From positions 1 to 25,394 of the IMG/VR virus record IMGVR_UViG_3300005582_000092: a stretch of DNA of 25,394 bases, one strand, 5' to 3'. The translations under genes and the position numbers were made by a program. The stretch's first letter is position 1, and each line of letters opens with the position of its first letter. Origin of the DNA: a virus. This document shows positions 8,412 through 25,394 of this stretch, in pieces. The notes under the pieces are model-generated. The model was not told the origin of the DNA and searched no databases. It saw nothing but the letters and a program-made list of their open reading frames with translations.

Positions 8412-11400
8412 TTATATAGTTTTCATTTTTTCTATTAATTCACTTAATAAAAATCCATTGTCATAATTTGACCATTTCTCTTCTAAAAATTCAGATAATG
8501 TCATACAAGTACCACTAGCACCTTTAAATAACTCTGCATTTCCACCAGTTGTATTATCTAAGCCTGTTAAACTGGAGATATCTATGGGTATATTTATACC
8601 ACCAATATTTATATTGTGATTTAATTTAATTTTTTTATTATCTTTATCCATCAATTTTACTATAACAGTATTACTTAGTTTATAATCTGATCCATCAGTA
8701 GTCCAGTCCCCCTCTATTTTTACAAATTTTAAGCCTGCACCAAATTCACCTGTTGCAATATCGTATCCATCTTTGGTTATCATAATTTTAATCGTACTAC
8801 CACCAATAGTGACTTCTTTTTCACATGAATGACTATCATCAAACATAAAATACATATTAAATCTATTATTCTCATTTAACCCCTTTTCAAAAAGATTAAC
8901 TAAGTAAAAATGATTTACTCTTCCAGTTTTTGCTTTTAGAAAAACACCTAAATAACAACCATCAGGTGATGTACCTGACTGAAAAGATAGTGTAGAATCA
9001 GTTTTATATTTCCCATAAATTTTTCCTAATTCAGTTCCTGGATTTAAACATATATCTCCTTCATTTCCTGCCCTTACTATATAATTTTTACTTTGGAGAA
9101 AAGCAATTGCCTCACCCTCATTATCACATGCTTCATTTACTAAATTACCGTATAACCTTTCATTTGTAAATAATGATTTAATTCTATTTATCTCTTCGTT
9201 TAGTTTCATTTTTGATTTATTATATGTTTCATTTTTAATTAGTGTACTATCACCATCGACTTCTACATCCACTTCTAATAAAAATTTTTGAAATGTTTTT
9301 AAATCTTCAGGGGTTAATTTTTTATTACTTGTTACAACTACTGCAGTCTTTTCTTCTTTTGATATCTTAGGTTTTTCAATACCTTTTAATGTGATAATAA
9401 CATTAGATATTTTTCGAATAGATTCTGTTTCACTAACAGATTTATTAATTATCCCTTCTAAAATAGGTATGACTAAATCTGTAACTTCTTTAATATCTTT
9501 GTGTTTGTATCTTCTACCGTCAATTTGATATGACACTTCTTTTTTAAGTGCCGTAACTGAATTTAAAAGAGAATCCCCAGTATCACTTTTTAATATTTCT
9601 GAAATTTTAATAGAAAAATCACTTAATAATTTAGTCTCTTCAATAAAAGTTTCTGTATCTATAAAACCACTCTCACTTAATTTTTCTGCCAACAAATCAA
9701 TTTTTTCATTATTAGAAATGATGTCAGTGTAATCTGGAGATAATTGTTCCTGATCTATTTCTCCTGTTTCTGTAAATATACCTAATGGATCAAAACCGTA
9801 ATTTAAATAAAGGTTTTGTAATCCTTTTGCAATATCTTCACTAAATACATATAATCCTGCGAATAGAGAACCTTGTATCACAAATTGTTTCACACCTTTA
9901 AAGTATGAATTAACCATCTTATTTAAATCTTTACCATATTTATTATATAATTCTTCTATTTTTTTAGGATCTTCGTTTTTAAATATGTCACTCAATACAC
10001 CCCTTTGTTGAGGATCTAAATTTTTTCCTTGTCTATTTAAATCAGTAATTAAATCTCTATATTTTGGAGTATCTACTTTCTTTAATAATTCTTTAAATTC
10101 GTCAAACATCTTTAATTCCTCAGGATTTAATGTTCTAGACCATTGAGCGATTTCTCTTTCTAACCCTATTAAATCATTACCATATTGTGTAGTTATATTA
10201 CCTAACTCACCTAATTTAGCACTAAATTTACTTCCTTTACCTGCTAATTTTAAAGCCTCTCCCAAACCAAATAACGCACCTAATGCGGTTAAACTGGCAT
10301 TAATTTCCCATCCTTCATCTTCTTCTACAACATATCCTATTGCACTAACTAAATCTATTAATCCACTAACCAATACTCCCACAGGACCAAATGTTAATGA
10401 AACTATAGAAGCTACATCTGATATACAATGCCAATCAGATGCACAATCAGATGACCAGTCTCCTACCTTTTCCAACCCACTCCTAATATCCCCAATAGAT
10501 TTACCACACCAGTCATTAATGTTAATATCTATAACATAGTCACCATCAACCCCATTTACCGTTACTTTTGCAGTACCATTTGGTTTAACACAACAACAAA
10601 CAGTTTTATTATCTATAAACCCAATCCTTGACATTCCTGTAGTTCTTTTAGAAGGGGTAGTTGGTGTCATAAACATACCACCATTATTTTTACATACATC
10701 ACTCCATTTAAATGTTTCATTTATTTCAGGAGAATGTCCACCAGAACCTGGAGCACCATAACCTACAGGTAAAGAAACTGTCTTATAAATTGGATTTGAA
10801 CAAGCATTTTTATGTCTTTCCTTAGTTTGTAAAGAAATTATAATATTATGTTCATCAATTATCTCTAAAACTTTATCATATTTATTATAGAAAACTAAAT
10901 TATCTTTAAATTCAGTCCCTAAACTATCTAATTTTTTCTGTAATTTTATTTTTTGATTATAATCCTTTAAATTATCTTCATAGTTATCTTTTGCGATATT
11001 ATTAAATATTTCAATACTTTGTAATTTTTGGTAATATGATCTACCCAAACTACCTTCAGGATCTAAAACTTGTGTATTTATATCTCCGTCATCTCTAGGA
11101 CCACCTGTGTATGTATTATCCACCTGTTCTATTGGTTTTTCAGGTTTAAAACCTATAGACAAATCACCAAAATAATTTTTTAGTTTATCATCAAAAGAAC
11201 GACTAACCAAAATCCTTTCAACATCATCTGTCCCAACAATGCCACTAGATAGTGCAGAATTCATCATTTTAATTTTTAACTCCTCTAATTTCTCAATTAT
11301 ATAAGAAGGGTTAATACATGTCGATACACCTATTTTACTGTCTAATATATCCGTTATCTTATCACTGTTTACTGTTTTTGTACCAGTCCATCCAAAGTAA

Positions 11401-11957
11401 CTACTTACTGCGTCCCAATTATTTATAGCACTTTTATAGTTTTTATACTCTTTATAATTATCATATTGTATAATGTCTATTGGTGGATACACTCCATCGG
11501 AAACAGGTATACCAAATTTTTTATAGTTAGGATTGTTTCTGTCTGTATCTAAACCTGCAAAATCATCTACACCTTGCCACCCTTTACCTTTGTTAGATTT
11601 TAAATAATCTTGACCGACTGTTCTCCATGCGATTTTCATGTAATCGTTGTTATATCCACCAATTTTACTTAAACCATCCGTCAAACCATTTTTAGAAAGT
11701 TCTTTATTTACTTTACTTAACCTTTTACTATCACCCCTAACCCAAGATCTGAAATTATCACCATCACTTTTATTTTTAATGTGGTAAGTAAATAAATCAT
11801 CAACAGGTATAGTCTTAATTGAATACTTACCACCATCAAAAGGACTTGTTGGTGATACCTGAGCACCCTTTGATTTACCGTTTTTCTTTGGTGGATTTTG
11901 TTCCACTAAGAAAACCCTTTTAAATTGTTCTTCAGATATTACAACTCTTTTTTTCAT
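8412..11957 (-). CDS. Giant unknown virion-protein candidate, apparent two-module fusion
   Basis: I do not recognise this 1181-aa protein. It begins with a leader, MKKRVVISEEQFKRVFLVEQ, with LVE/Q at residue 19, resembling the leaders of neighbouring genes. A Gly/Asn/Tyr-rich first third includes KGWQGVDDFAGLDTDRNNP. Hydrophobic, glycine-rich stretches lie at about 508-570 (VSLTFGPVGVLVSGLIDLV, then LTALGALFGLGEALKLAG) and at about 690-705 (IQGSLFAGLYVF), which could be membrane-active. A helical part follows. At residue 917 an internal copy of the leader type found on the next gene appears (MKLNEEINRIKSLF, then NERLYGNLVNEA). About 239 beta-rich residues follow, so the C-terminal part looks like a second gene fused on. 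It starts 3 nt after the 383-aa gene's stop and ends 1 nt before the next ATG, indicating tight coupling. A virion-internal or ejection role is inferred from leader and context. Confidence 0.62.
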   Translation of the reverse strand: MKKRVVISEEQFKRVFLVEQNPPKKNGKSKGAQVSPTSPFDGGKYSIKTIPVDDLFTYHIKNKSDGDNFRSWVRGDSKRLSKVNKELSKNGLTDGLSKIGGYNNDYMKIAWRTVGQDYLKSNKGKGWQGVDDFAGLDTDRNNPNYKKFGIPVSDGVYPPIDIIQYDNYKEYKNYKSAINNWDAVSSYFGWTGTKTVNSDKITDILDSKIGVSTCINPSYIIEKLEELKIKMMNSALSSGIVGTDDVERILVSRSFDDKLKNYFGDLSIGFKPEKPIEQVDNTYTGGPRDDGDINTQVLDPEGSLGRSYYQKLQSIEIFNNIAKDNYEDNLKDYNQKIKLQKKLDSLGTEFKDNLVFYNKYDKVLEIIDEHNIIISLQTKERHKNACSNPIYKTVSLPVGYGAPGSGGHSPEINETFKWSDVCKNNGGMFMTPTTPSKRTTGMSRIGFIDNKTVCCCVKPNGTAKVTVNGVDGDYVIDININDWCGKSIGDIRSGLEKVGDWSSDCASDWHCISDVASIVSLTFGPVGVLVSGLIDLVSAIGYVVEEDEGWEINASLTALGALFGLGEALKLAGKGSKFSAKLGELGNITTQYGNDLIGLEREIAQWSRTLNPEELKMFDEFKELLKKVDTPKYRDLITDLNRQGKNLDPQQRGVLSDIFKNEDPKKIEELYNKYGKDLNKMVNSYFKGVKQFVIQGSLFAGLYVFSEDIAKGLQNLYLNYGFDPLGIFTETGEIDQEQLSPDYTDIISNNEKIDLLAEKLSESGFIDTETFIEETKLLSDFSIKISEILKSDTGDSLLNSVTALKKEVSYQIDGRRYKHKDIKEVTDLVIPILEGIINKSVSETESIRKISNVIITLKGIEKPKISKEEKTAVVVTSNKKLTPEDLKTFQKFLLEVDVEVDGDSTLIKNETYNKSKMKLNEEINRIKSLFTNERLYGNLVNEACDNEGEAIAFLQSKNYIVRAGNEGDICLNPGTELGKIYGKYKTDSTLSFQSGTSPDGCYLGVFLKAKTGRVNHFYLVNLFEKGLNENNRFNMYFMFDDSHSCEKEVTIGGSTIKIMITKDGYDIATGEFGAGLKFVKIEGDWTTDGSDYKLSNTVIVKLMDKDNKKIKLNHNINIGGINIPIDISSLTGLDNTTGGNAELFKGASGTCMTLSEFLEEKWSNYDNGFLLSELIEKMKTI

Positions 11958-11960
11958 ATT

Positions 11961-13112
11961 TTAAACATTAGTCAACACAAACGAACCAACATCCATTTTA
12001 TCTGTTTCAATTGCCTTTTGTATTACAATTCTTTGTTTATTTGAATCAATGTTTAATTCTTTATAGATATAACTTACATATTCTTTTCTGAATTTAATAT
12101 TACCTTTATCATTCTTATCTACTAAGGGAACATTCATTTTGGAACGGAAATTAAATTTGTTTGCACCAACCTTTTTAACTATTGCAAGTTTAGTACCATT
12201 TTGATCCTTAACAACGTATCTTTCTCCTTCAACTCCGCCTGCAACTATTTTTTCATCAAAGTTATCGCCAGTAATTTCTTCAGTATCATTTCCTGATATT
12301 TGTTGCATTACTTTGGTAGGATCTAAACCTAATGTTTTATACATTATTCTAATCTCATCTCCCTTTCTAAATAATCCTTCTTTTTGAAAAACGTTTCTAA
12401 AAGTAGACATACACCATACTACACCATCAATCTCTTCTTTTTGAAATTCTTCTTTGGTTTTACCTTGTCTAACTTGTTTATACATATCCTTCATGTGATC
12501 TCTACACTCATCCTTACTCATATTAATCTCCTTTTTGGTTGCATTAACATCGTCTTTTCTTTGTTGTTTAACATTGCCCGCATCTTTATTTGTGGAGAAT
12601 TCAGGATTCGTTCCCGACTTAGATTTTAACCAATCAGATTTCAATGCCACGCTCAACTGAGTTTTAAATGATTCTGCGTCAATCTTACCTACTTGTTCAG
12701 ATGATAATACATATCCATCACCAGTACTAATAGAAAGTTTTTTACCCTCAGGACCAATACTCAAAGAACTATTCCAACTTGTAACCAAACCATTCTCAAC
12801 TTTAATCATAATATAAAAATTTAAAGACCCCCTATTAAAATCAAAATCCTTAAATGCCTCTGTTTTACCAAGTTGTTCTACTTCATTCTTTATCTTAACA
12901 ATGTTATAAGGTTTAAATTCTCTAAAATATGTGTTTTCACCATATTCAGGACCTGACTTTTTAAAATTATTAGAAGTTAAAATTTCTTCATATTTTTCAA
13001 GAGTGTCACCATTTACATCTTCAGTTATAAGATTACCGAACATTCTCTCTTCAGTAAAAAGAGATTTCATTCTTTCAATTTCCTCATTTAAAGTATTACT
13101 ATATTTTTTCAT
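11961..13112 (-). CDS. Unknown leader-bearing virion-protein candidate
   Basis: I do not recognise this 383-aa protein. Its first 31 residues are a leader: MKKYSNTLNEEIERMKSLF, then EERMFGNLITE, where ITE/D at residue 31 fits the T4 prohead-protease type of site. The same leader occurs inside the 1181-aa neighbour (residue 917), with NEEI-(E/N)-R-(M/I)-KSLF and ER-(M/L)-(F/Y)-GNL shared. The rest has a beta-rich half (SLNFYIMIKVENG, SLSIGPEGKKLSISTG), a charged linker (about 175-205) and a helical C-terminal part with WCMSTFRNVFQKEGLF. It has no signal peptide or membrane segment. It is the first gene of the 13112-to-6071 block and has TATTTATA boxes 13 and 45 nt upstream of its ATG. Confidence 0.62.
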   Translation of the reverse strand: MKKYSNTLNEEIERMKSLFTEERMFGNLITEDVNGDTLEKYEEILTSNNFKKSGPEYGENTYFREFKPYNIVKIKNEVEQLGKTEAFKDFDFNRGSLNFYIMIKVENGLVTSWNSSLSIGPEGKKLSISTGDGYVLSSEQVGKIDAESFKTQLSVALKSDWLKSKSGTNPEFSTNKDAGNVKQQRKDDVNATKKEINMSKDECRDHMKDMYKQVRQGKTKEEFQKEEIDGVVWCMSTFRNVFQKEGLFRKGDEIRIMYKTLGLDPTKVMQQISGNDTEEITGDNFDEKIVAGGVEGERYVVKDQNGTKLAIVKKVGANKFNFRSKMNVPLVDKNDKGNIKFRKEYVSYIYKELNIDSNKQRIVIQKAIETDKMDVGSFVLTNV

Positions 13113-13125
13113 TTTTTCGTTTATA

Positions 13126-13133
13126 TATAAATA
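13126..13133 (-). promoter_or_regulatory. TATTTATA box, candidate phage promoter (proximal)
   Basis: The gene-sense context is TATAATATTTATATATAAAC. It ends 13 nt before the ATG at 13112 and is one of two copies of the octamer in this gap. Confidence 0.45.
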
Positions 13134-13157
13134 TTATAGTTTTATAAAAAAGGTGAA

Positions 13158-13165
13158 TATAAATA
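13158..13165 (-). promoter_or_regulatory. TATTTATA box, candidate phage promoter (distal)
   Basis: The gene-sense context is TTTCTATTTATATTCACC. It ends 45 nt before the ATG at 13112 and lies directly after the tube-gene terminator hairpin, as expected for a terminator followed by a new promoter. Its flanks fit the extended consensus less well than the proximal copy. Confidence 0.4.
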
Positions 13166-13166
13166 G

Positions 13167-13205
13167 AAAATCCTTACCATATAATATATATACGATAAGG
13201 ATTTT
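13167..13205 (-). terminator. Hairpin downstream of tail tube gene
   Basis: A perfect 10-bp inverted repeat (AAAATCCTTA at 13167-13176, TAAGGATTTT at 13196-13205) flanks a 19-nt A/T-rich loop, 22 nt after the tube stop. On the minus strand the 3' arm ends in TTTT followed by CTATTTAT, a short imperfect U-tract. It may limit read-through from the abundant tube transcript into the 383-aa gene. Confidence 0.5.
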
Positions 13206-13227
13206 GTAAATATGTTAATAAAACGTA

Positions 13228-13716
13228 TTAGAATACGTTTATCGCTCTGTCAAATCTAAGTGTACAAGTAATATCTGCCAAATCTGAAGATGAATAATCT
13301 AATCCACCAAAGTCAACATCATTTAATTGACAACTTTGAAGAATCCATTTTTGAACAACAACACCAGTTGGATCCAACATCTCTAATTCAACATCTTTTT
13401 TGTAACCTGCCGCATAACCTTGTCTACCTGTTACAGATTCAGAGTGTAAACGAACCCACTCCATTAACGCCTGAGACGCAGAAGGACCAATAGGGTCTCT
13501 AAAAGTTACAGAGATTGATTCCCAGTTAAATCTACCAATTACATATGTAGAAGTATTTAAAAAAGGTATCTCCACCTCAGCACTCGTATATTTTGGTCGG
13601 CTAGTTGTAGATACCCACCATTCTTGAATTCCCAATTCATCTGGAAATCTCAAAATAAACCTATTCTTTCTTAACGGTTCGTAAGGAACAGGCATTCTCA
13701 TTAATAAATCAGCCAT
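13228..13716 (-). CDS. gp19: Tail tube protein (T4 gp19-like)
   Basis: This 162-aa protein forms the inner tube of the contractile tail, through which DNA passes. The length matches T4 gp19 (163 aa). Typical features are the start MADLLMRMPVPYEPLRKNRF followed by ILRFPDELGIQEWWV, a central IGRFNWESISVTFRDPIGPS, and the ending TCTLRFDRAINVF, closely like the gp19 C-terminus. It has no signal peptide or membrane segment, as expected for a cytoplasmically assembled tube. An A/T-only leader precedes the ATG, and a TATTTATA box lies 45 nt upstream. It has its own promoter box and a downstream hairpin, which fits separate high-level expression of a major structural protein. The sheath gene lies 2.6 kb upstream rather than immediately adjacent as in T4; five genes separate the two. 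Confidence 0.93.
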   Translation of the reverse strand: MADLLMRMPVPYEPLRKNRFILRFPDELGIQEWWVSTTSRPKYTSAEVEIPFLNTSTYVIGRFNWESISVTFRDPIGPSASQALMEWVRLHSESVTGRQGYAAGYKKDVELEMLDPTGVVVQKWILQSCQLNDVDFGGLDYSSSDLADITCTLRFDRAINVF

Positions 13717-13761
13717 CTTAATTTTTTTTTAATTTTTTTTTATTAGTTGTATTATTTAATA

Positions 13762-13769
13762 TATAAATA
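13762..13769 (-). promoter_or_regulatory. TATTTATA box, candidate promoter of tail tube gene
   Basis: The gene-sense context is CACAATATTTATATATTAAA. It ends 45 nt before the tube ATG at 13716, in the 71-bp gap after the HAD gene. It matches the extended consensus aATATTTATATa fully. Confidence 0.5.
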
Positions 13770-13787
13770 TTGTGTTTTTGAGAAAAA

Positions 13788-14609
13788 TTATTTTTTTATA
13801 ATTATTCTTTTCTTTTTAGGATTTTTAGGGTCTGATGTATCGTAGATAATAAAATTTATTTCGGGATATAATTTTTGTAATTCATCCTCTATTAATTTTT
13901 CTATTGTTTTAACATTACCTTCATCATCGTCACTAAATCCTACGCTAATCCCCTCAAAATCAGAATTATTTCTTATGTCACCTATTTGTTTAACCACTTT
14001 TTCTACAAAACTTTTAAACGCAACTTTCTTACCTTTTTCAGGATTAGTACCACTTACATTTAAATCAAATTTATTTAAAAATTCTTCTGAAGAAACTGGA
14101 TGATAATCTTGTAAATTTAAATATTCCTCAATAGATAAACCGTTTAGATTTTTTTCCATTATTTTTTTCTCATCCCAATTGATTGTCTTTTCAATTACTA
14201 TCTTAATACCGTCTTTTATGGCTTGTGGTGAATTAGATCTGGCAGTAATTATTGAGAAATCACTTCCACTAATTAAAGCCTCTTTAAACTTATTAAAACT
14301 TGGACCATAACTTCTATAATTTAATGCTTCTTTCACATCTCTTACAAATGCATCATAATCTCTAAAATCTTTAAAAGATTGTTTAATGTCATCGTTAAGA
14401 TATCTAAACTCCGTACCTATTTTATGTCTGATACCTCTAAATTGTTCAGTAGAAACTGATACAGGTACCCACATTATTCCATTAACACTATAGTCTAAGT
14501 GTATTCTAGTTGGCATATTAAGAATATTATCATCCCAATCAAAAGAGTAAACTTTTTTTTTCGTTTCCTTTAAAATTTTGTGTTGTGATTCAGTAATTTT
14601 AATATTCAT
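13788..14609 (-). CDS. HAD-superfamily phosphatase-like protein with leader-like N-terminus
   Basis: This 273-aa protein has the HAD hydrolase motif order. Motif I is VYSFDWDDNIL with Asp24 and Asp26, where Asp24 would be the nucleophile. Motif II is FSIITARSNS with Thr122. A Lys-rich segment (GKKVAFK, about 193-199) could supply motif III, and motif IV is GFSDDDEGNV with Asp227-229. A helical cap-like insert lies between motifs I and II. It probably removes phosphate from a small molecule, nucleotide or nucleic-acid end; the substrate cannot be told. The first 15 residues, MNIKITESQHKILKE, resemble the leaders of nearby genes (xITESxxKIxKE) with an L-K-E site, so the enzyme may be packaged in the virion. 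It lies between a terminator and the tube gene, an unusual place for an enzyme. A TATTTATA box ends only 4 nt before its ATG. Confidence 0.75.
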   Translation of the reverse strand: MNIKITESQHKILKETKKKVYSFDWDDNILNMPTRIHLDYSVNGIMWVPVSVSTEQFRGIRHKIGTEFRYLNDDIKQSFKDFRDYDAFVRDVKEALNYRSYGPSFNKFKEALISGSDFSIITARSNSPQAIKDGIKIVIEKTINWDEKKIMEKNLNGLSIEEYLNLQDYHPVSSEEFLNKFDLNVSGTNPEKGKKVAFKSFVEKVVKQIGDIRNNSDFEGISVGFSDDDEGNVKTIEKLIEDELQKLYPEINFIIYDTSDPKNPKKKRIIIKK

Positions 14610-14613
14610 ATCA

Positions 14614-14621
14614 TATAAATA
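14614..14621 (-). promoter_or_regulatory. TATTTATA box very close to HAD gene start
   Basis: The gene-sense context is ACAAATATTTATATGATATG. The box ends only 4 nt before the ATG at 14609. If transcription starts a few nt downstream, as with T4 late promoters, the mRNA would be nearly leaderless. Alternatively the motif has another role here. Confidence 0.35.
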
Positions 14622-14631
14622 TTTGTAAAAT

Positions 14632-14657
14632 AAAAAAACCCATACTATGATGGGTTT
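14632..14657 (-). terminator. Rho-independent terminator after the 186-aa gene
   Basis: An 8-bp perfect stem (AAACCCAT at 14636-14643, ATGGGTTT at 14650-14657) has a 6-nt loop. On the minus strand the stem is followed directly by a T run (A 14632-14638 on plus). It lies 36 nt after the stop at 14694 and separates the small leader-bearing genes from the HAD gene. Confidence 0.85.
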
Positions 14658-14693
14658 AAAAAATAATTTTTTTGTAAAAGTAATAAGAATCTA

Positions 14694-15254
14694 TTAATAT
14701 TTTTGAATCTTATGTATTGATTCAATACCGTACTTCCCTCTCTTTTCTAACCCCTGTTCATCATTACAGGACGCAATGTGTGCGTCAACTTTAAACGGTT
14801 CCTCTACACCATCATCGAATGTACAATTGACTAATACTAGTGTTTTACCTTTAAGTTCCCACGATCCCCGTCTCCCACACAGTCCTGACTCAACATCATC
14901 AAGTGAAAATCTTTCTGCGCCCATACTTTCTTTAATTCTACGTCTAACAATTCTCGATTCATTCATTACGGGTGAATTCACTTTATTTTTAATACAATTT
15001 AAGGCTGCTAATGCTTTCATACCCATACCAAGTGGATCACTTGTTATCATCTCTCCCAATTCCGTCATACATTTAGTAACATCACCTGACACACAGCTTG
15101 GTAATTTAGTTGTATCAATCTTTGCTTCTTTACAACATTGAACCAAATCTGTTCCCGGATCACCTTTAGTGTCCTCTCTTAATACGACACCAACAATTCT
15201 TTTTAAATCACTTTCAGACAAAGTAATAACTTTACCGTTTTTTTTTATTTTCAT
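14694..15254 (-). CDS. Small Cys-rich leader-bearing protein (predicted internal virion protein)
   Basis: I do not recognise the family of this 186-aa protein. The leader MKIKKNGKVITLSESDLKRI followed by VGVVLRE has a predicted cut after Glu27. It is nearly identical to the leader of the upstream 112-aa gene (KIKKNGK-(I/V)-I-x-LSESDLKRI-x-x-(I/V)-VLRE), whereas the rest of the two proteins is unrelated. Several Cys follow (40, 41, 54, 62, 87, 126), which could pair outside the host cytoplasm. A second leader-like helix with an I-x-E site occurs at about 98-109 (MNESRIVRRRIKE), so the precursor may be cut twice. The C-terminal part (GSWELKGKTLVLVNCTFDDG) looks like a small beta domain. It lies 25 nt after the 112-aa gene and is followed by a strong terminator. 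Confidence 0.68.
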   Translation of the reverse strand: MKIKKNGKVITLSESDLKRIVGVVLREDTKGDPGTDLVQCCKEAKIDTTKLPSCVSGDVTKCMTELGEMITSDPLGMGMKALAALNCIKNKVNSPVMNESRIVRRRIKESMGAERFSLDDVESGLCGRRGSWELKGKTLVLVNCTFDDGVEEPFKVDAHIASCNDEQGLEKRGKYGIESIHKIQKY

Positions 15255-15279
15255 ATCTCAATTATATTATTTTTTATTA

Positions 15280-15618
15280 TTACCATTTAGTGCATGAAGC
15301 ACCTAATTTTTTAAATTTATTTGGTTGTTTGTGTTTAGTAAAAATTTTCTTAATTTTTCTTTTAAATCTCCTCAATTTTTTAGGTAAATCACCAACATTA
15401 TCAACAAATTTTTCAACTTTTTGTAAAAGTGTATCTAATAATTTTGGATCTGGATTGTCCTCATCTATTCCATCTAATTCAACCTCTAATTCAGAACCAT
15501 CGGCAGTTACATCAACTTCAGCCTCATCTTGTTCTCTTAATACTATCATAGTAATTCTTTTTAAGTCACTTTCTGAAAGACTTATAATTTTTCCGTTTTT
15601 TTTAATTTTTAAACCCAT
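15280..15618 (-). CDS. Small leader-bearing acidic/basic protein (predicted internal virion protein)
   Basis: This 112-aa protein has no family I recognise. The leader (MGLKIKKNGKIISLSESDLK, then RITMIVLRE) ends at Glu29, a T4 prohead-protease-like L-R-E site. An acidic stretch follows (EVDVTADGSELEVELDGIDE), then a Lys/Arg-rich tail (KKLRRFKRKIKKIFTKHKQ). The mature part thus has a charge split often seen in DNA-associated internal head proteins. It shares its leader with the 186-aa gene 25 nt downstream, consistent with shuffling or duplication of the leader alone. Its ATG is 30 nt past the stop of the beta-rich 200-aa gene; the leader is AAAAAACAAAGAAAATG, with no Shine-Dalgarno. No separate promoter box is seen, so it is probably co-transcribed. 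Confidence 0.65.
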   Translation of the reverse strand: MGLKIKKNGKIISLSESDLKRITMIVLREQDEAEVDVTADGSELEVELDGIDEDNPDPKLLDTLLQKVEKFVDNVGDLPKKLRRFKRKIKKIFTKHKQPNKFKKLGASCTKW

Positions 15619-16304: not shown

Positions 16305-19154
16305 TTAAATATCGTCAAAACTTGCACCTGTATTTGTGATATTGAATTCTATTGATATAAATTCTAATGATCTAGTTGGTTTAATAAAAATTCTACCATT
16401 CAATTCATTTCTATCTATAGATTCTGGTGTATCATCTAACACAACTCTAAAGTCTGTCAAACCTCTTTCTTTTCTAATGTTATCTAAGATTGGGTTTACT
16501 AAACTTAAGAATTGGTTTCTAACCACCTCATCATTTTGTTCAAATAACAATCTGATAGAAACTGCAGATATAAGTTTTCTTGCTTGTAACAATAATCTTC
16601 TAACGTTAATTCTGTTAAGTGCACTTTCTTTAACTTGTAATGTTTTATTACCAAATATTACTACACCTACATCTGAGAATGTAGCCATTGGGTTAATTCT
16701 ACCTTCGTACAGATCATCTCTATCATCTAATTTAAGTTTTACTCTCGCTTTAACTGCGTTTGTTGTACCTCTATTTAAACCTGCTGCGGCGAACCAAGGG
16801 AACGCAACGTTATCTGTAAGTGCGATGTTTCTCATAACCTCTACAGTTGGTGGTAACCAAACATATCTGTTATTTTCAGTATCGTTCATTTGAATCCAAG
16901 GCCAGTAAGTGGCAGAATAGTTAGAGTCTATACCTGAATCTTCTAGTAAGTTAACTGCCTCATCTGGAGTTAATGCAACCCCATCTACATCTGTATCAGG
17001 TGTTGTCGTAACATATAAAGAATCCGCCCTATCAACCTCAATCATATCCACTGCATTTTCAATCAAACTTATATTATCTCTAAGGTCAATTCCTGGTGTT
17101 GCGAAAACGTTAATGTTTACTGCTTCAGGATTATTGAACGTATAAATACCGTCTAAGTATGCGTAAAAGTCAGATGTAATACCATTATCACCTTCACTAG
17201 TTATAAATGATGTAAATGTTCCGTTAGTTAAACCTATAGAACCTTTAGATCCTGTCTTAGTATAAGCATCTGTGTTAGTTCTTGTGGTTCTATACTCATC
17301 CCATCCATCCCATCCACCAAATGGTGTTAATGTGAATTTTCTTGATGCTAATTTTTCGTAAGGTCCACCAACTAAACTTGCGTCTGTTGTGAATGCTGAA
17401 ATACCGACTTGTAAAGTAGGTACATAACTATTAGTTCCTAATTCTACTGTAGCACCATTTGCGTTTACATCTAAGTGGAATCCATCAGTTTTACCTGTAT
17501 ATTCACCGTTGTTAACTGCATTTTTACCTTTATAGTCGAAGAAATCTTGATCGACACCTATTTCACTATTTAATCCCAAATAAACTTTTCTCAATTTATT
17601 TGTGTTAAAGTCACTGTATTGTGTTTTATATTCAATTTTAGGTGCTAACGAAGTTCTATTACCAATATAAGTTCTATTAAGAACACCCTCAAATCCTGCA
17701 GGAAAGTGGTTAACTAAATCTGGATCGTTTACATCGTAAAATTCGATCATAATATATTTACTTCTCAATGGATATTCACCATCTACAGTACCAATCTTTC
17801 TACCTAAGAATCCTGTTGCAGTATTATCTAAACTAATTGATGAAAATTTCTCAACTACATTTGGGTTAGCATCTGTATCGTAGAAACTTCTTACCACTAA
17901 GTCAAATGTTTTATTATCTGGTTGAACATTTAAAATTGAAATTTTAATGTCATCATTCGCAGCGTTACCGTCAGATATTGTTACAAATCTAAATAGTCTT
18001 TGTAAAGTTGCACCTGAACCAGTACCTTTTAATTCGGAAAGAACCCAAGGTGAAGCCGCAGATTTCCAACCCTCTAAATAATTATTAAAGTTATATGTTG
18101 ATGTCGCAGAAATTTCTAAGAAAGTAATATCTAAACCTCTAACTTGATCTTTAGCAATTAAATCTTCTAATACGTTAGTATAAATTTCCTCAACCCACAA
18201 TTCTGATTCTTTATCTTGTATTGAACTACCGAATACTCTAGGTAAAAAATTCTTTTTAGTTCTATCCATAGATACATCATATGTAAATGCGTCACCCGTA
18301 GAACCAGTACCATTGATACTAAACGATGCTAAGGCATTTGTGACAATATTTGATGTATTAGTCATAAACGCATTTGTTGTACCAGTTACATCATAAATAA
18401 TGTTTTGATTCGCTTGATCGTAAGTACCTCTAGGTCTTAAAGTGGCAATTACACTACCATCAACATCACTGAAACAAGATGCGGTATATGTTACTACAGT
18501 ACCACTAGTAGTACCAGTTATAAAACCACCTGGAGATGTACCTTTTGCAGTGACTGTCATATTAAAAGTAGCACCACTAAAATTACAACCAGTTTTAACA
18601 TATACTGGTGATGTAACACTAATTGTTGATCCTGTTGATAACAACCCTATAGTTGTAAAACTAGATGTAATTTGATTATCGTTATATAATGCCTGTAAAT
18701 TAGTTGACCCCCACGTAAGTGTAATTGGGTTACCTGTTGTTTGTGCAGAATAAGTTAATAATGTTGCAATAGTTGAAGATGTACCTGATGCAACCGTATC
18801 TGGATCTTCTGATGAGTCCAATGTAATTGACCAAGAGTCACCTGCTTTATAACCTGACAAACCTAAAACCCTACTAACATATAATTGATTAGTTTGACTT
18901 AAAAATGATTTGGCTATATAATTTAATTCGTATTTTTGGTATCCGTTCCCTTTATACTTTTCAGGGTTCAAACCACCAAAATAACTGATAAACTCATCGT
19001 AATTAGAAATGAAGACTGGCTCAAACGCTGGTCCTTTAGGTGTCTCACCTAATAATCCCAATGTTGTTACCCCAACCTGTCTAGTTACGAAAGTTAAATC
19101 TTTTTCTGATGTAAACACACCAGGACTTACAAAAATTCTATCTGTTGATGCCAT
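16305..19154 (-). CDS. gp18: Tail sheath protein (T4 gp18-like)
   Basis: This 949-aa protein is the contractile sheath that drives the tube through the host envelope. The N-terminus (ASTDRIFVSPGVFTSEKDLT, then VGVTTLGLLGETPKGPAFEP) and the C-terminal 250 residues are typical of gp18. The latter contain INVFATPGIDLRDN, NRGTTNAVKARVKLKL, INPMATFSDVGVVIFGNKTL, RRLLLQARKLISAVSIRLLF and LEFISIEFNITNTG. It is clearly longer than T4 gp18 (659 aa). Part of the surplus is a Thr/Gly/Ser-rich beta insertion at about 110-290 (TVTAKGTSPGGFITGTTSGT), which may be a surface-exposed domain. The ATG at 19154 has an A/T-only leader and a TATTTATA box 41 nt upstream. A strong terminator follows, so it is expressed as a single-gene unit. 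Confidence 0.96.
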   Translation of the reverse strand: MASTDRIFVSPGVFTSEKDLTFVTRQVGVTTLGLLGETPKGPAFEPVFISNYDEFISYFGGLNPEKYKGNGYQKYELNYIAKSFLSQTNQLYVSRVLGLSGYKAGDSWSITLDSSEDPDTVASGTSSTIATLLTYSAQTTGNPITLTWGSTNLQALYNDNQITSSFTTIGLLSTGSTISVTSPVYVKTGCNFSGATFNMTVTAKGTSPGGFITGTTSGTVVTYTASCFSDVDGSVIATLRPRGTYDQANQNIIYDVTGTTNAFMTNTSNIVTNALASFSINGTGSTGDAFTYDVSMDRTKKNFLPRVFGSSIQDKESELWVEEIYTNVLEDLIAKDQVRGLDITFLEISATSTYNFNNYLEGWKSAASPWVLSELKGTGSGATLQRLFRFVTISDGNAANDDIKISILNVQPDNKTFDLVVRSFYDTDANPNVVEKFSSISLDNTATGFLGRKIGTVDGEYPLRSKYIMIEFYDVNDPDLVNHFPAGFEGVLNRTYIGNRTSLAPKIEYKTQYSDFNTNKLRKVYLGLNSEIGVDQDFFDYKGKNAVNNGEYTGKTDGFHLDVNANGATVELGTNSYVPTLQVGISAFTTDASLVGGPYEKLASRKFTLTPFGGWDGWDEYRTTRTNTDAYTKTGSKGSIGLTNGTFTSFITSEGDNGITSDFYAYLDGIYTFNNPEAVNINVFATPGIDLRDNISLIENAVDMIEVDRADSLYVTTTPDTDVDGVALTPDEAVNLLEDSGIDSNYSATYWPWIQMNDTENNRYVWLPPTVEVMRNIALTDNVAFPWFAAAGLNRGTTNAVKARVKLKLDDRDDLYEGRINPMATFSDVGVVIFGNKTLQVKESALNRINVRRLLLQARKLISAVSIRLLFEQNDEVVRNQFLSLVNPILDNIRKERGLTDFRVVLDDTPESIDRNELNGRIFIKPTRSLEFISIEFNITNTGASFDDI

Positions 19155-19195: not shown

Positions 19196-19203
19196 TATAA
19201 ATA
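19196..19203 (-). promoter_or_regulatory. TATTTATA box, candidate promoter of tail sheath gene
   Basis: The gene-sense context is TGGCATATTTATAATAAAAA. It ends 41 nt before the sheath ATG, similar to the 45-nt spacing at the tube gene, so the two major tail proteins have matching promoter geometry. Confidence 0.5.
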
Positions 19204-19250
19204 TGCCAATATTTTTGAAAAATTTATTTTTAAAGTCTCATTTTTAAAAA

Positions 19251-19283
19251 TAGTATGTTAATTATCATACTTTTATCATACTT
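19251..19283 (+). repeat. Operator-like array of three contiguous 11-bp units
   Basis: TTATCATACTT occurs twice in perfect tandem (19262-19272 and 19273-19283). The adjoining unit TAGTATGTTAA (19251-19261) matches its reverse complement at 9 of 11 positions. Units 1 and 2 together form a near-perfect 20-bp palindrome. One-turn spacing and its position 15 nt before a small RHH-like gene suggest an autoregulatory operator. Confidence 0.6.
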
Positions 19284-19298
19284 ATTATAAAAAGTGTT

Positions 19299-19454
19299 AT
19301 GAAAAGGGATAAAAATTTGAAAATCACACCACAAACCCATAAAATATTGAAACAGTACTGTGAGGATAATGGGTTGAAAATGTTCGCGTTTGTTGAAAAA
19401 CTAATTAAAGATAAATGTATACCAAAAAAAGATATATATGGTGATGTCGAATAA
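19299..19454 (+). CDS. Small ribbon-helix-helix-like DNA-binding protein
   Basis: This 51-aa plus-strand ORF is not a shadow of any other gene. It starts MKRDKNLKITPQTHKILKQY, then CEDNGLKMFAFVEKLIKDKC. The pattern strand (NLKIT), helix (PQTHKILKQYCEDNG), turn (LK), helix (MFAFVEKLIKDKC) is that of ribbon-helix-helix (Arc/MetJ-type) repressors and is common among tiny phage ORFs. Such proteins dimerise and place the paired strands in the DNA major groove. It lies 37 nt upstream of the 1603-aa enzyme on the same strand and 15 nt downstream of three contiguous 11-bp repeats. It probably controls itself and the enzyme gene. The ATG at 19299 is the only sensible start; the short C-terminal tail after residue 40 is charged. 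Confidence 0.6.
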   Translation: MKRDKNLKITPQTHKILKQYCEDNGLKMFAFVEKLIKDKCIPKKDIYGDVE

Positions 19455-19473
19455 TATTTATTTTTTTTGTTTT

Positions 19474-19491: not shown

Positions 19492-22400
19492 ATGAAAAAG
19501 TTACTATTAATTACTCCACATTTATCTACGGGTGGTGCACCACAATTCACTTTAAATAGGATTGAATTATTAAAAGACACTTATGATGTTTATTGTGTCG
19601 AATATAGTTTTTTATCACCTCATTTTGTAGTTCAAAGAAATAAAATTATAGACTTATTAAAAGATAAGTTTTTTGCCTTAGAAAATGATAAAGACAATCT
19701 TTTAAATATCATTAATTCAATTAATCCTGATATCATATCAATTGAGGAATTTTCGGAAACATTTATGGAAAATCATTTATTAGATTTTATTTATAAAAAA
19801 GATAGGGTATGGATGATTTTGGAGACTACTCATACTTCATACAACAATTCAAATATTAAAAGATATTTTCCCGATAAATTTATATTCGTTTCAGAATGGT
19901 CGAAAAAAATGTATTCTCACTTCGGTGTAGAATCTGAGGTAATAGAATACCCAATAGATAAAAAGGAAAAGAAAGAAAAAGAATCGAAAGAAAAGTTATC
20001 ATTTGACAATGATTATATACATATATTAAATGTTGGGTTATTTACACCCGGAAAAAATCAAGGTTACGCATTTGAAATTGCGAGAAGATTTTTAGATAAA
20101 AAAGTATTATTTCACTTTGTAGGTAATCAGGCAGGTAATTTTGAGGATTATTGGGGTGAGATTTTAAAAGATAAACCAAGTAATTGTATACTATGGGGTG
20201 AAAGAGAAGATGTGGAAGACTTTATTATGGCATCCGATGTGTTCTTATTTAGTTCTATATTAGAACTTAACCCATTAGTCATTAAAGAGGTTATGAGATA
20301 TGATACTCCTATATTTATGTTTAATTTGGAAACATATTGTGATGTATATAATAACAATGAAAATATTACTTTCTTATCTGGTAATGTTAGTGAAGACGTA
20401 AACAATATAAAAAAATTATTAGGAATCAAAAACGAAAAACCAAAAGATAAGTTAGATAAATCTTATGTCTATTACGCAACTGAAAAATATTTTGATATTG
20501 TAAAAAAATCTGTTGAATCAATTCGACAGTTTAGTGATAAACCTATAATAGTTTATTTACTAAATTCTGATAGAAAAATTGATGTTGAAAATACTATTAC
20601 CGTAAATTGGAAATGTAATATTAGTGAATCTGAAAATATGTTTATTAATGAAAATGATAATTTTTATATTAATAGATCTAACAGTGAGATATATAATATT
20701 TTAATACAAAGACCTTTAATAGTAAAAGATGCCTTAGAAAAATATTCTAATGTAGTTGCATATGTTGATAGTGATTCTATTGCGACTAAAAGTGTTGACA
20801 ATATTTTTAATATGTACGATGAAAATCTTAACTACCCTTATTTTGTAGAAGGTATTTATGATTATTTAATTATAAACGGTAGAGGTGGGGCATCTTCTAA
20901 AGAAGATTTATCAAATACGTTAGAACACCCAACTTGTGAATTATTCAATGTAAACCAAAAAGTTAGAGAGAAATATAGACAAACAGGATATTTTGTGTCT
21001 GGACAAAACACAACTGATTTTTTAAACGAATGGTACCAAATGTGTATACATCCTGAAATACTAAAGAATAATGAATGGTATGCACCTTTTAATGAAGAAA
21101 CTATTCTCAATGTATTACTTTGGAAAAGAAATATATTAGATGGACTACCATACATTTATGTTAATGGTTCTTTAGACACAATAGATAAAGTTAATGATAT
21201 TGGTTTTAATGGTGTGGACTCACATCACGGTGATTGGTTTAAAATACCTAAGAAAAGGGATAATTTATTATTTTATCACGGAGAAAAGAGAATTGACGTA
21301 TTAGATAATATGAAAAAAAAATTAAAAGGTTTATATTATAAAAATATAAAAATTGCGGACGCGGGTTATGTTATTAATTTACCACATAGGGTAGATAGAA
21401 GAGAAAGTGTGATAAAAATACTTAATGAATTAGAAATAACTGGTTATGAATTTGTTGATGGGACTGTTATAGAACATCCTGAATATAAGAAATTAGGTTG
21501 TACTGCCTCTTATTTAGGAATTTTTAAAAACGTTCTAAAAAGTGATTTAGAAAATATAATTGTTATAGAGGATGATGTTAAACTAATGAATGGTGTTGAT
21601 AAAAACCATTTAGATAACATATTCAATGTATGGGACAAAACAGTAAAAAATTATGATGTCGTTGCATTAGGTGTTAAACTTTTACCGAGAAGTGAGATTA
21701 AAGTGAACGGTGACACACACGGTAGTTTTGAAGAAATGTTGTGTAGTCAATCTTTATTTTACCATAGACACTTTATAGAACATTACGTTAGTCAAATGGA
21801 AAATTATATGAATCCTGAACATTATCTTTATAAATGTACTATAGATATGTTTTTAAATGATTGTTCTTGTGAAGAGTATAGATTCATTCACTCAAAAAAT
21901 CATAAGAAATTTAATTTTGGTATCACATTACCAATGGTATTCACACAAACAGATAGTTTTTCAGATAACGAACTTTTCTTACAAGAGTATGATAATGTTA
22001 TGGAAAACTCATTTTGGGAAAGTTTAAATACTAATGGTAAAAAAAATAATTTTTTTCTTAATGAAATTGGATCAGTTGATTCACAAAAAACAAAAGAAAA
22101 GTATATTAATGTTATGAAACAAACAAATATGGATAAAAATATGAATAAAAATGAAAACATTAAGTTTAATGTTAACTTTGTAAATCAACCATTCTTTGAG
22201 ATAGTGGGGAATTCCGATAAAAAATATAGTGTCGAATTTTTTGATACAAACGGAAAATCGATATATACTACTGTATTGGGTGCAAATATGTGGTCAAAAA
22301 TAAATCGTAGTTACTTCGAAAATTGGGAGATTAAAGTAACATCAGATGACGGTTATGAAAAAATAATTAATTATGATGTAAAAGGAAAAAGAGTATATAT

Positions 22401-24303
22401 TGCGTTAGATTCATCTGCGTTAGGTGATACAATTGCGTGGGTTCCATATGTTGAGGAATTCAGGAAGAAATGGGACTGTGAGGTAATAGTATCGACTTTT
22501 TGGAATCATCTATTTGAGAAATCTTACCCTAATTTAATTTTTAATAAACCAGGTATACCTGTTCATAATTTGTATGCGATGTATAAGATAGGTTGGTTTT
22601 ATGATTCAGAAATGGAACCTGAAACACCAAATACTATCCCACTACAAAAAACTGCGACAAATATTTTAGGTTTAGAATATAAAGAGATTAAACCTATTAT
22701 TGACTATAAAATAGGTAATAACCCTATTGGTGATAAATATGTAGTAATATCCCCTTACTCAACCGCAGGATTAAAACATTGGGATTTTGAAAGATGGGAA
22801 AAATTATCTGAATGGTTAGTTAGTTTGGGTTATAAAGTTGTCAATATTTCTAAAGATTCTGTTAAATCAAAGTTTATTGATAATCTAAAGAATACGTCCA
22901 TAGAAAATACTTTAAATTATATACACCATAGTGAGTTTATGATTGGTTTATCTAGTGGTTTATCTTGGTTATCTTGGGCGGCAGGTAAACACGTATTTAT
23001 GATTTCTAATTTTACTGAACCTGATCATGAGTTTACAACCAACTGTACGAGATTTATAAACAAATCTGTTTGTAATGGTTGTTGGAATAATCCTAAATTT
23101 AAATTTGATAAGGGTGATTGGGATTGGTGTCCTGAACATAAAGGTACGGATAGACAATTTGAATGTCATAAATCAATAACTGTGGAAGATGTTATTAATG
23201 GTATTAAATCTTTTTTAGGTAGTGATATTAAAAATATTGAACAAAGAAAGGTGAGGAAAAATAATATAATTTTTAATGTTTATGAAACAGAACAATGGTC
23301 AAAAAACTTTTGGGAAAATAGATTTGAATATTGGGAGAAAGAAACATTTAATTTTATAGATAAACATCTAAACAAAGACAAAACTTTTATTGATATCGGT
23401 TCTTGGATTGGACCAATGTCCTTATATTCTAGTTTTAATTCTAAAAACTGTATTGCATATGAACCAGATCCAATTGCCTACGAAGAATTTAATAAAAGTA
23501 TTGAACTAAATGGTATTAACAATATATTTTTAGAAAAAAAAGGTGTTTCAACAACCAACAGTATTGAAATTGGAGCATTAGAATTAGGTCATAGTGTTAC
23601 AAGAGTAGGTGTTTCAGAAAATTCTATTACTGTTGAATGTGATACTATATCAGAAATTTTAAATAAAAATAATTTGGATGAATCAAAAATTTCTATGATT
23701 AAAATAGACATTGAGGGTCACGAAACTGAATTATTAAAGGATGAGGTTTTGGTAAATTTAAATGTACCTATGTATATTTCATTTCATCCTGGATTAACGG
23801 ATGTAGAAAATTTCTTTGAGGAAGTTAAACCTTTTTTAATTAAAAAAGGGTATGATATAAATAATTACCCACACAATGAATTATTCTTTGAAATTGGTTT
23901 TGAACCTTTAAATAAACCTAATGTGAGTAAAGAGATAGAAGTTTCTATTGGTGAGATAGTAGATAAGTTATCCATATTACGTTTAAAATTATTAAATATA
24001 ACTGATAAAGAAAAATTAAAAAACGTAACTAAAGAATATAATTACCTATACAACATTGTTTTTAATGATTTAAAAATTGAAACTTACGATTTTGAAAGAA
24101 TGGTTAATATCAATAAAATACTTTGGGATGTAGAAGATCGTATTAGAGAAAAAGAAAGAGAAAAACAATTTGACTCTGACTTTATTGAAATGGCGAGAAC
24201 CGTTTACATCACAAATGATCTGAGGGCAGAAATTAAGAAAGAAATTAATACTAAATACGGTTCATCTTTTGTTGAAGAAAAATCATATTCAGATTATAAT
24301 TAA
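19492..24303 (+). CDS. Six-module glycosyltransferase/methyltransferase megaenzyme
   Basis: This 1603-aa cytoplasmic protein has no signal peptide or membrane segment. Module 1 (1-310) is GT4-like: LLLITPHLSTGGAP, LFTPGKNQG at 184-191, and Glu258/Glu266 in LELNPLVIKEV. Module 2 (about 320-615) is a GT-A-like domain with DxD YVDSDS (Asp426, Asp428). Module 3 (621-840) is GT25-like: VINLPHRVDRRESV and IVIEDDV (693-696). Module 4 (about 890-1240) resembles the TibC/Aah autotransporter O-heptosyltransferases: a small beta domain, then VYIALDSSALGDTIAWVPYV, and an iron-finger-like Cys quartet (1194, 1197, 1213, 1225). Module 5 (about 1280-1470) is an FkbM methyltransferase with FIDIGSWIG and IKIDIEGHE. 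Module 6 (about 1480-1600) matches DUF6165 (VSIGEIVDKLSILRLKL, ending GSSFVEEKSY). It probably builds and methylates a short glycan on a protein. Its stop overlaps that of the convergent fibre gene. Confidence 0.88.
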   Translation: MKKLLLITPHLSTGGAPQFTLNRIELLKDTYDVYCVEYSFLSPHFVVQRNKIIDLLKDKFFALENDKDNLLNIINSINPDIISIEEFSETFMENHLLDFIYKKDRVWMILETTHTSYNNSNIKRYFPDKFIFVSEWSKKMYSHFGVESEVIEYPIDKKEKKEKESKEKLSFDNDYIHILNVGLFTPGKNQGYAFEIARRFLDKKVLFHFVGNQAGNFEDYWGEILKDKPSNCILWGEREDVEDFIMASDVFLFSSILELNPLVIKEVMRYDTPIFMFNLETYCDVYNNNENITFLSGNVSEDVNNIKKLLGIKNEKPKDKLDKSYVYYATEKYFDIVKKSVESIRQFSDKPIIVYLLNSDRKIDVENTITVNWKCNISESENMFINENDNFYINRSNSEIYNILIQRPLIVKDALEKYSNVVAYVDSDSIATKSVDNIFNMYDENLNYPYFVEGIYDYLIINGRGGASSKEDLSNTLEHPTCELFNVNQKVREKYRQTGYFVSGQNTTDFLNEWYQMCIHPEILKNNEWYAPFNEETILNVLLWKRNILDGLPYIYVNGSLDTIDKVNDIGFNGVDSHHGDWFKIPKKRDNLLFYHGEKRIDVLDNMKKKLKGLYYKNIKIADAGYVINLPHRVDRRESVIKILNELEITGYEFVDGTVIEHPEYKKLGCTASYLGIFKNVLKSDLENIIVIEDDVKLMNGVDKNHLDNIFNVWDKTVKNYDVVALGVKLLPRSEIKVNGDTHGSFEEMLCSQSLFYHRHFIEHYVSQMENYMNPEHYLYKCTIDMFLNDCSCEEYRFIHSKNHKKFNFGITLPMVFTQTDSFSDNELFLQEYDNVMENSFWESLNTNGKKNNFFLNEIGSVDSQKTKEKYINVMKQTNMDKNMNKNENIKFNVNFVNQPFFEIVGNSDKKYSVEFFDTNGKSIYTTVLGANMWSKINRSYFENWEIKVTSDDGYEKIINYDVKGKRVYIALDSSALGDTIAWVPYVEEFRKKWDCEVIVSTFWNHLFEKSYPNLIFNKPGIPVHNLYAMYKIGWFYDSEMEPETPNTIPLQKTATNILGLEYKEIKPIIDYKIGNNPIGDKYVVISPYSTAGLKHWDFERWEKLSEWLVSLGYKVVNISKDSVKSKFIDNLKNTSIENTLNYIHHSEFMIGLSSGLSWLSWAAGKHVFMISNFTEPDHEFTTNCTRFINKSVCNGCWNNPKFKFDKGDWDWCPEHKGTDRQFECHKSITVEDVINGIKSFLGSDIKNIEQRKVRKNNIIFNVYETEQWSKNFWENRFEYWEKETFNFIDKHLNKDKTFIDIGSWIGPMSLYSSFNSKNCIAYEPDPIAYEEFNKSIELNGINNIFLEKKGVSTTNSIEIGALELGHSVTRVGVSENSITVECDTISEILNKNNLDESKISMIKIDIEGHETELLKDEVLVNLNVPMYISFHPGLTDVENFFEEVKPFLIKKGYDINNYPHNELFFEIGFEPLNKPNVSKEIEVSIGEIVDKLSILRLKLLNITDKEKLKNVTKEYNYLYNIVFNDLKIETYDFERMVNINKILWDVEDRIREKEREKQFDSDFIEMARTVYITNDLRAEIKKEINTKYGSSFVEEKSYSDYN

Positions 24304-25394
24304 GTACAACCTCTCTTTACGTTTAATGTGTAAGTAAACCTAATTCCATCTCCAGTGGAATTTGCACTACCGATTCCAATACCTTTAAATCCTAATACTA
24401 AACGGGTATCACATCGTGGCCATTCTTGATTTATCACATAAGACATATCAAAACAAACTATCCTAGATTCACTTTGACTATTATCAGCTGTTTCTTCGAA
24501 AAAATTAAAAACTGGGAACGCATCATCTTGCAGACTATAATCACTACATCTAAATGCGTCTATCGCAACACCTAATGACCATGTAGTCGGTACGATTGTA
24601 CCACCAGAAAGATAGGCTGATCCGCAAACAGTTAGTTCATCATCAGGAAATAAGTCAAATGGTACTGGTATTCCACCAAAAACTACCTCCCCTGGAACCG
24701 GATCACCTAAAAAACCTTTATTTACCTTTTTAGAAATATCTAAACTACATCCATCCCATCCGCAGTCAATATCTGCATACCAATATCCACCAGAAGAGGC
24801 TTCTCCAATAAATGAACCTGAATGTGATGCAATTAAGAATTGTGTTCCTATTGTTACTCCAACCTCACCAGCGGCGCCAACCACTGCGGTAACACAAACA
24901 CCACTAAAATCTATACTTGTTACATTTGACTCAACCAAAGTACCCTCATCGTAGATAGATAGTGATGCACCACCACCCGAAACTCCTGAACTACCACTTG
25001 TTCCTGATGAACCTGTACCACCCGGTGAACCTGATGTACCTGATGTACCTGATGTTCCTGATGTTCCTCTTGTTCCTGAACTTCCACTTGTACCACTAGT
25101 ACCGCTAGTTCCTCTAGTACCTGAACTACCACTAGTACCATCAACACCTGATAAACCACTAGTTCCTGAAGAACCGCTAGTTCCTGATGTACCTCTAGTT
25201 CCTGAACTACCACTTGTTCCTGAAGTACCAGTAGTACCTGATGTTCCACTACTTCCACTTATTCCTGAAGAACCACTTGTACCACTAGTACCTGTTGTTC
25301 CTGAAGTACCAGTAGTACCTGATGTTCCACTACTTCCACTTATTCCTGAAGAACCACTTGTACCACTAGTACCTGTTGTTCCTGAAGTACCAGT
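24300..25394 (-). CDS. Collagen-like (Gly-X-X) fibre protein, N-terminus outside window (partial)
   Basis: One minus-strand frame is open from the right edge (25394) to TAA at 24302-24300 (364 codons visible); the true start is beyond the window. A TTG at 24938 is in the same frame and is not a start. The first 140 or so residues are uninterrupted Gly-X-X triplets of the GTSGTSGSSG type, with occasional GTR, GVD and one GSP, and very little proline. They end at SGGGASLSIYDEGTLV. The C-terminal 220 residues are a beta-rich, Cys-containing head (TSIDFSGVCVTAVVG, GGYWYADIDCGWDGCSLD, FTYTLNVKRGCT). The SLSIYDEGTLV-x-x-N-x-T-x-IDF-x-G motif is common after collagen stalks in phage fibres. It is probably a trimeric head or tail fibre with a collagen stalk and a C-terminal receptor-binding or trimerisation domain. 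Thr/Ser in nearly every triplet makes it a candidate O-glycosylation substrate of the adjacent enzyme. Confidence 0.85.
   Translation of the reverse strand, partial: TGTSGTTGTSGTSGSSGISGSSGTSGTTGTSGTTGTSGTSGSSGISGSSGTSGTTGTSGTSGSSGTRGTSGTSGSSGTSGLSGVDGTSGSSGTRGTSGTSGTSGSSGTRGTSGTSGTSGTSGSPGGTGSSGTSGSSGVSGGGASLSIYDEGTLVESNVTSIDFSGVCVTAVVGAAGEVGVTIGTQFLIASHSGSFIGEASSGGYWYADIDCGWDGCSLDISKKVNKGFLGDPVPGEVVFGGIPVPFDLFPDDELTVCGSAYLSGGTIVPTTWSLGVAIDAFRCSDYSLQDDAFPVFNFFEETADNSQSESRIVCFDMSYVINQEWPRCDTRLVLGFKGIGIGSANSTGDGIRFTYTLNVKRGCT
25219..25394 (-). repeat. Exact 81-bp tandem repeat within collagen-like stalk
   Basis: Copies at 25219-25299 and 25300-25380 are identical, and a third begins at 25381 and is cut by the window edge. 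Each codes for 27 residues (nine Gly-X-X triplets), so copy-number changes keep the frame. The rest of the stalk repeats only at protein level with varied codons, so this block looks recently duplicated. Confidence 0.92.

Follow-up and report, generated by a model that had tools for sequence, protein, structure and literature searches.

The window analysed here, the whole 25,394-nt stretch of an IMG/VR virus record, carries a compact array of three contiguous 11-bp units in the intergenic region between two divergently oriented genes. On one side lies a gene on the minus strand for a 949-aa tail sheath protein (16305..19154), identified by a PHROG match at E 1e-59 and by Pfam Phage_sheath_1C and conserved as a divergent neighbour among relatives. 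On the other side, on the plus strand, lies a 51-aa ORF (19299..19454) for which weak profile matches and an N-terminal pattern suggest a regulator of the ribbon-helix-helix (RHH) type. This ORF is followed on the same strand by a 1603-aa fused glycosyltransferase (GT)/FkbM methyltransferase gene (19492..24303), a single ORF that joins GT4, GT25 and GT9 glycosyltransferase, FkbM methyltransferase and DUF6165 domains. Convergent with it, at 24300-25394 on the minus strand, is a probable tail fibre gene with collagen-like GTSG/SGTSG repeats, and several virion genes at 8412-15618, also on the minus strand, share N-terminal leader-like segments (LSESDLKRIVxxVLxE, LNEEIxRxKSLFTxE and ITESQHKILKE) that are perhaps assembly or cleavage signals.

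The array comprises an inverted half-site unit, R1 (19251..19261, minus strand), which matches the 11-mer at 9/11 positions, and two direct units on the plus strand, R2 (19262..19272) and R3 (19273..19283), which both read TTATCATACTT with 0 mismatches. The core of R1 is AGTATG (19252-19257), the commonest core among non-redundant relatives, and the CATACT cores of R2 and R3 occupy 19266-19271 and 19277-19282, respectively; across these relatives, the core of R2 varies most and that of R3 least. The units follow one another with zero gap, and the end of the array lies 15 nt from the start of the 51-aa ORF. The placing of the units, the match counts and the distance to the ORF given in a preliminary description of this DNA are thus exact. 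Its claim that the units are spaced by one helical turn applies to the R2-R3 pair (11 bp) but fails for R1, which is inverted and places the centres of AGTATG and CATACT 14 bp apart.

Single copies of the 11-mer, counted at two or fewer mismatches, occur at chance level across the 25-kb AT-rich window (24 observed versus 31 expected), and the only complex exact tandem in the window is R2-R3. An exact tandem also arose in 2/60 windows simulated under a Markov model, or about 3%. A chance origin of the array is nevertheless untenable because it is conserved among relatives, with a mean pairwise identity of 84% in the array columns versus 43% in the array-proximal half of the spacer that separates it from the sheath promoter.

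We consider the 51-aa protein likely to be of the RHH type on the evidence of weak profile matches together with a sequence pattern. The Pfam family RepB-RCR_reg (PF10723) scores 20 bits against the window protein, with a cut-off of 21, and matches 23/23 members tested; a PHROG named 'Arc-like repressor' matches at E 0.002-0.004, and 2kel, named only Uncharacterized protein 56B, matches at E 0.16. The N-terminal pattern MKRxKN(L/I)KIT is nearly invariant, with M1, K2, R3, K5, N6, K8, I9 and T10 invariant across 23 diverse members, and conservation extends to a C-terminal D(I/L)YG(D/E) tail; the near-invariance of the N-terminus fits what would be expected of a strand that reads DNA. The assignment rests on profiles and pattern because the AlphaFold monomer, modelled at low confidence (pLDDT 69-74), has helices at residues 11-24 and 28/29-37/40 and no strand, and a Foldseek search with the monomer models returned no fold match in the PDB. 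SUMO matches in the PDB were set aside as chance matches of 15 residues.

Relatives of the protein are encoded in 298 IMG/VR stretches, of which 80 were fetched for comparison of their gene neighbourhoods. In nearly all of the fetched relatives, AGTATG-N8-CATACTTTTRTCATACTTAT precedes the start codon. Arrays consist of one inverted unit with one, two or three direct units of 11 bp, usually two. The association, which also weighs decisively against chance, appears as well in a DNA-only scan of IMG/VR that was blind to the protein: the pattern CATACTTTTRTCATACTT returned 116 arrays, of which 111 precede the ORF, 4 meet a contig end (3 of these still show the first codons MKR...) and 1 is unrelated. 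Some relatives elaborate the module, with one array followed by two RHH-like genes in tandem (L069, L080 and L329) or with direct repeats, TCAAATTTACCCCTATAAAA, that have been inserted after the array and ahead of the RHH start (L017, L058, L060, L142 and L158). One bacterial assembly contig, from a Prochlorococcus single-cell assembly (L255, QCKH01000012.1), bears the module, perhaps through infection or a co-sorted virus. A search of cultured phage records gave no convincing match to the ORF.

Each of 17 contigs of 71-368 kb holds one full array, at the ORF; when two of them, of 368 kb and 254 kb, were scanned with a weight matrix, the runner-up fell more than 50 bits short. We therefore reject a genome-wide regulon, which is ruled out by the single array per genome. 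A single site per phage genome would also suit a protein whose real targets are host promoters and for which the phage array serves as an autoregulatory site only; regulators aimed at the host often lack any other target in the phage. We hold such a takeover function to be quite improbable: it would explain neither why the module stays so strictly with the sheath gene nor why it has a late-type promoter and the phasing described below.

The ORF is divergent from the tail sheath gene in 80/80 relatives, usually at a distance of ~145 nt, and the sheath N-terminus lies within 600 nt in 150/155 unique loci. Downstream of the RHH gene, the GT gene is found in 13/80 relatives, and elsewhere there are unrelated, mostly convergent genes. 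These counts bear on the proposal of the preliminary description that the RHH switch and the GT gene move together as a moron-like cassette and time virion glycosylation. The two genes are indeed neighbours in the window, as they are in 13 close relatives, but in 67/80 relatives the RHH gene sits at the sheath gene without a GT gene. Moreover, the GT gene is preceded by a late-promoter-like ATATTTATT (19454..19462, plus strand) that recurs in most of seven relatives inspected, with a variant in L011, which suggests that it has its own promoter. The neighbourhood comparison refutes the GT-linked cassette as a unit and leaves that reading with hardly any credit. Because the sheath gene is the neighbour in 80/80 relatives and the GT gene in 13/80, the RHH-array module belongs stably with the sheath gene and does not form a cassette with the GT gene.

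The sheath gene shares its promoter-like element with other genes. In the window, ATATTTATA precedes six genes on the minus strand, including the sheath gene, for which it lies at 19196..19204 on the minus strand, at a fixed spacing from the array. In two large relatives, TATTTATA is found in the sense versus the antisense orientation 41 versus 17 and 42 versus 26 times, and the element peaks 10-40 nt before gene starts with the consensus ATATTTATAataAAA. The enriched sense element is thus ATATTTATA and not TATAAATA, the gp55-dependent -10 element of the T4 type. Weak gp55-like proteins are encoded in two relatives (E 1.6e-6 in G003 and E 0.01 in G001). We infer that motifs of the ATATTTATA type are the late-type element of this phage group.

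A putative -10 element of the RHH gene, TACTTATT (19279..19286, plus strand), overlaps R3 and resembles the same late-type consensus. R3 and its flank read CATACTTAT(A), and the TACTTAT that overlaps R3 is one change away from the ATATTTATA of the group. Among non-redundant loci, 93% have TAYTTAT no more than 45 nt from the RHH start, versus 6% for the antisense orientation, and the longer TAYTTATA is present in 61% versus 3% in antisense and 3% in shuffled sequence; the TTAT after R3 is specific, as R2 is followed by TTTT(G/A). Relatives with altered arrays place the element differently. L398 has GTATTTATA, with a perfect TATTTATA, in the place of R3; in L309, L385, L387 and L395, a -10-like ATATTTAT(G/A) sits between the half-sites; and in L312 and L393, ATATTTATA comes after the array. 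In each of these variants, a bound protein would cover the -10 element of the RHH promoter or sit beside it, and this placement is the classical geometry of autorepression. The overlap of R3 with the -10 and the presence of ATATTTATA inside or just after the array in relatives thus imply autorepression. As in autoregulatory RHH repressors, repeated sites lie at the regulator's own promoter and are strictly linked to its gene. The regulator and operator postulated in the preliminary description accordingly find support in an array that is tied to the gene, is nearly unique per genome and overlaps a late-type -10, and the RHH-type protein probably has its own cognate, autoregulatory operator.

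Two other promoters were considered for the RHH gene. A Bacteroidota sigma-A promoter is suggested by TACTTTTG, a TAnnTTTG -7 box that R2-R3 contains in many loci, but there is no conserved -33 TTG upstream of the array, and for this reason we prefer the late-type element. A rightward T4-type promoter TATAAATA on the plus strand was also rejected, given that the sense late element of the group is ATATTTATA. The same region could in principle act in RNA, with R1 and R2 forming a hairpin in the leader transcript, and AGTATG-N8-CATACT is indeed able to pair. Differences between R1 and R2 are uncompensated, however (GATACT or CTTACT faces an unaltered AGTATG), the two loop-side pairs hold many mismatches of the T-T, G-A and G-G kinds, and R3 is the most conserved unit although it is unpaired. 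An Rfam search gave no match, and on the lack of compensation together with this empty search we reject the hairpin, a reading to which we attach almost no weight.

By its spacing, the array appears to belong to the promoter region of the sheath gene as well as to that of the RHH gene. From the sheath ATAAATA (as read on the plus strand) to the CATACT of R2, the distance is 69±1 nt in 62 of the 67 non-redundant loci with a clear sheath promoter. The offsets from the mode are 0 (40 loci), +1 (19), -1 (3), -10 (1), +10 (2) and +11 (2), with nothing else. All five of the larger shifts thus fall at 10-11 nt, for which p is ~1e-5 if shifts of 2-20 nt are equally likely, a value to be read with the qualification that the five exceptions possibly come from fewer than five independent events. 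The array-to-ATG distance steps by about 11 too, and the distance from the sheath ATG to its promoter spreads over 27-47 nt without helical-turn quantisation. In L017 and L142, more than 100 nt have been inserted on the way from the array to the RHH start, and the spacing on the sheath side is unchanged.

The spacer itself is uneven in its conservation. Its first half has a mean identity of 59% versus 32% from composition and includes a block conserved among relatives, TTTTTGAAAAA at 19212..19222 (TTTTTCAAAAGTA in relatives), between the sheath promoter and the array; the array-proximal half, at the 43% given above, compares with 36% from composition. Between this block and the array (19225-19250 in the window), the spacer contains a dyad in many clades and none in others; its arms vary from phage to phage and stay self-complementary, for example, TTGTTGTTATACAACAA, ATGGTGTATGTAATACACCAT and GTGTTATATAACAC. 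A second RHH gene, at G003:203276-203530 (also at L029:7312), encodes a differing protein and has a promoter-spacer-array region identical to that of the first gene but for exactly one missing 11-bp unit; in G003, this second module is divergent from a 567-aa fibre-like gene. The helical phasing, the side on which insertions occur and the G003 duplication together indicate that the array probably controls the sheath promoter too, although the fixed spacing could instead reflect the RHH promoter's own needs or the block at 19212-19222.

A plain autorepressor would control its own gene only, and the sheath spacing would then be a by-product or a matter of back-to-back polymerase packing. Such a protein would account for the overlap of R3 with the -10, for the lack of further sites in the genome and for a small gene that, in most relatives, seems to be transcribed alone. 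We find it unlikely nonetheless: the spacing to the sheath promoter is kept over a very variable spacer and changes by whole helical turns, insertions spare the sheath side, and the protein would have no evident use without another target, yet it is kept in all relatives.

We favour instead, at a probability of about 0.64, a reading in which the array is the single operator of the RHH protein and serves both autorepression and the modulation of sheath transcription, in a circuit dedicated to one major virion gene. In this model, built from sequence comparison, RHH dimers would bind the three half-sites side by side. Protein bound at R3, over the -10 of the RHH gene's late-type promoter, would limit RHH synthesis, and the same complex, ~60-95 bp upstream of the presumed sheath start and always on one face of the helix, would modulate transcription of the sheath gene. 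Its effect there would most likely be that of a helper, in a geometry like that of a class-I activator, and less likely that of a repressor or of a referee between back-to-back polymerases.

A more specific version would make the RHH protein a gene-dedicated activator of the sheath late promoter that contacts the late machinery through its KKD(I/L)YG(D/E) tail. We regard this version as unlikely. The tail can be likened to the hydrophobic-acidic C-terminal clamp-binding epitope of T4 gp55, which ends in SLDFLYEAND. Clamp binding is only a lead, because in two relatives neither the gp55-like proteins nor the DNA polymerases end in D(I/L)YG(D/E) and a PF02916 search in two relatives found no gp45-type clamp. 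A coiled-coil protein whose gene lies between an SbcD-like and an SbcC-like gene (G001:201187-201552 and G003:129042-129557), with a sigma70-like gene nearby, has a KKD(I/L)YG(D/E) C-terminus as well and possibly shares a binding partner with the RHH protein. If the tail reading were true, late control in T4-like phages would have a further layer, specific to one promoter.

Known RHH systems offer partial parallels. Repressors of the P22 Arc type are likewise ~50-aa strand-helix-helix proteins with adjacent half-sites by their own promoter, and Arc half-sites lie about one helical turn apart. Unlike the Arc operator, with its two half-sites, the array has three units, and in place of immunity control we find a sheath gene and a late-type promoter in an apparently lytic T4-like phage. 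Arc is also the model cited in the description of RelB/relO, in which RHH dimers occupy contiguous sites on one helix face with strict half-site spacing and autorepression (PMC2812701). The RHH dimers proposed here, on contiguous phased sites and with autorepression, would resemble that system, but there is no toxin partner: the genes downstream are variable and mostly convergent, so no conserved adjacent toxin gene of a type II toxin-antitoxin pair was found. The RHH protein omega/ParB of pSM19035 binds contiguous direct and inverted 7-bp repeats, at least four of which are needed for partition (PMC9499535). The array shares the contiguous direct and inverted arrangement but differs in its 11-bp units, its one to three direct copies and its place beside promoters, and it lacks the four or more contiguous short repeats of a plasmid-type partition site. 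In the T4 late system, gp55, gp33 and gp45 act at late virion genes whose promoters have a single -10-type element (PMC2988020); the present phages resemble T4 in having a single -10-type element and weak gp55-like proteins, and they differ in their sense element, ATATTTATA. RHH proteins on contiguous phased sites are therefore known, and what is different here is one regulator with one site per genome at the sheath promoter.

The probable hosts can be approached through promoter sequences. In two relatives, TTG-N18-22-TAnnTTTG precedes genes 76 times in sense versus 12 in antisense and 23 versus 7 times, and TAnnTTTG is the -7 box of flavobacterial sigma-A (PMC9723704). Far-T4 phages, which are T4-like and distant from T4, have been assigned in silico to aquatic Bacteroidetes (PMC7198788), and large phages predicted for freshwater Bacteroidetes transcribe the sheath gene strongly in late infection (PMC9723584). 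The present group likely belongs to those Bacteroidetes phage clades, and its large, T4-like phages probably infect Bacteroidota.

Overall, we envision this module as a case of control at a single virion gene. We found no description, in open-licence papers, of a dedicated DNA-bound regulator of the sheath gene in T4-like phages, whose late virion genes are generally regarded as switched on together. The sequence AGTATG-N8-CATACTTTTRTCATACTTAT provides a signature that marks this phage group, and the locus offers a short, clean and testable promoter module from a group of large tailed phages that is widespread, abundant and uncultured. Our findings suggest that the stoichiometry of one major virion protein may be controlled at the level of its single gene across hundreds of aquatic phage contigs.
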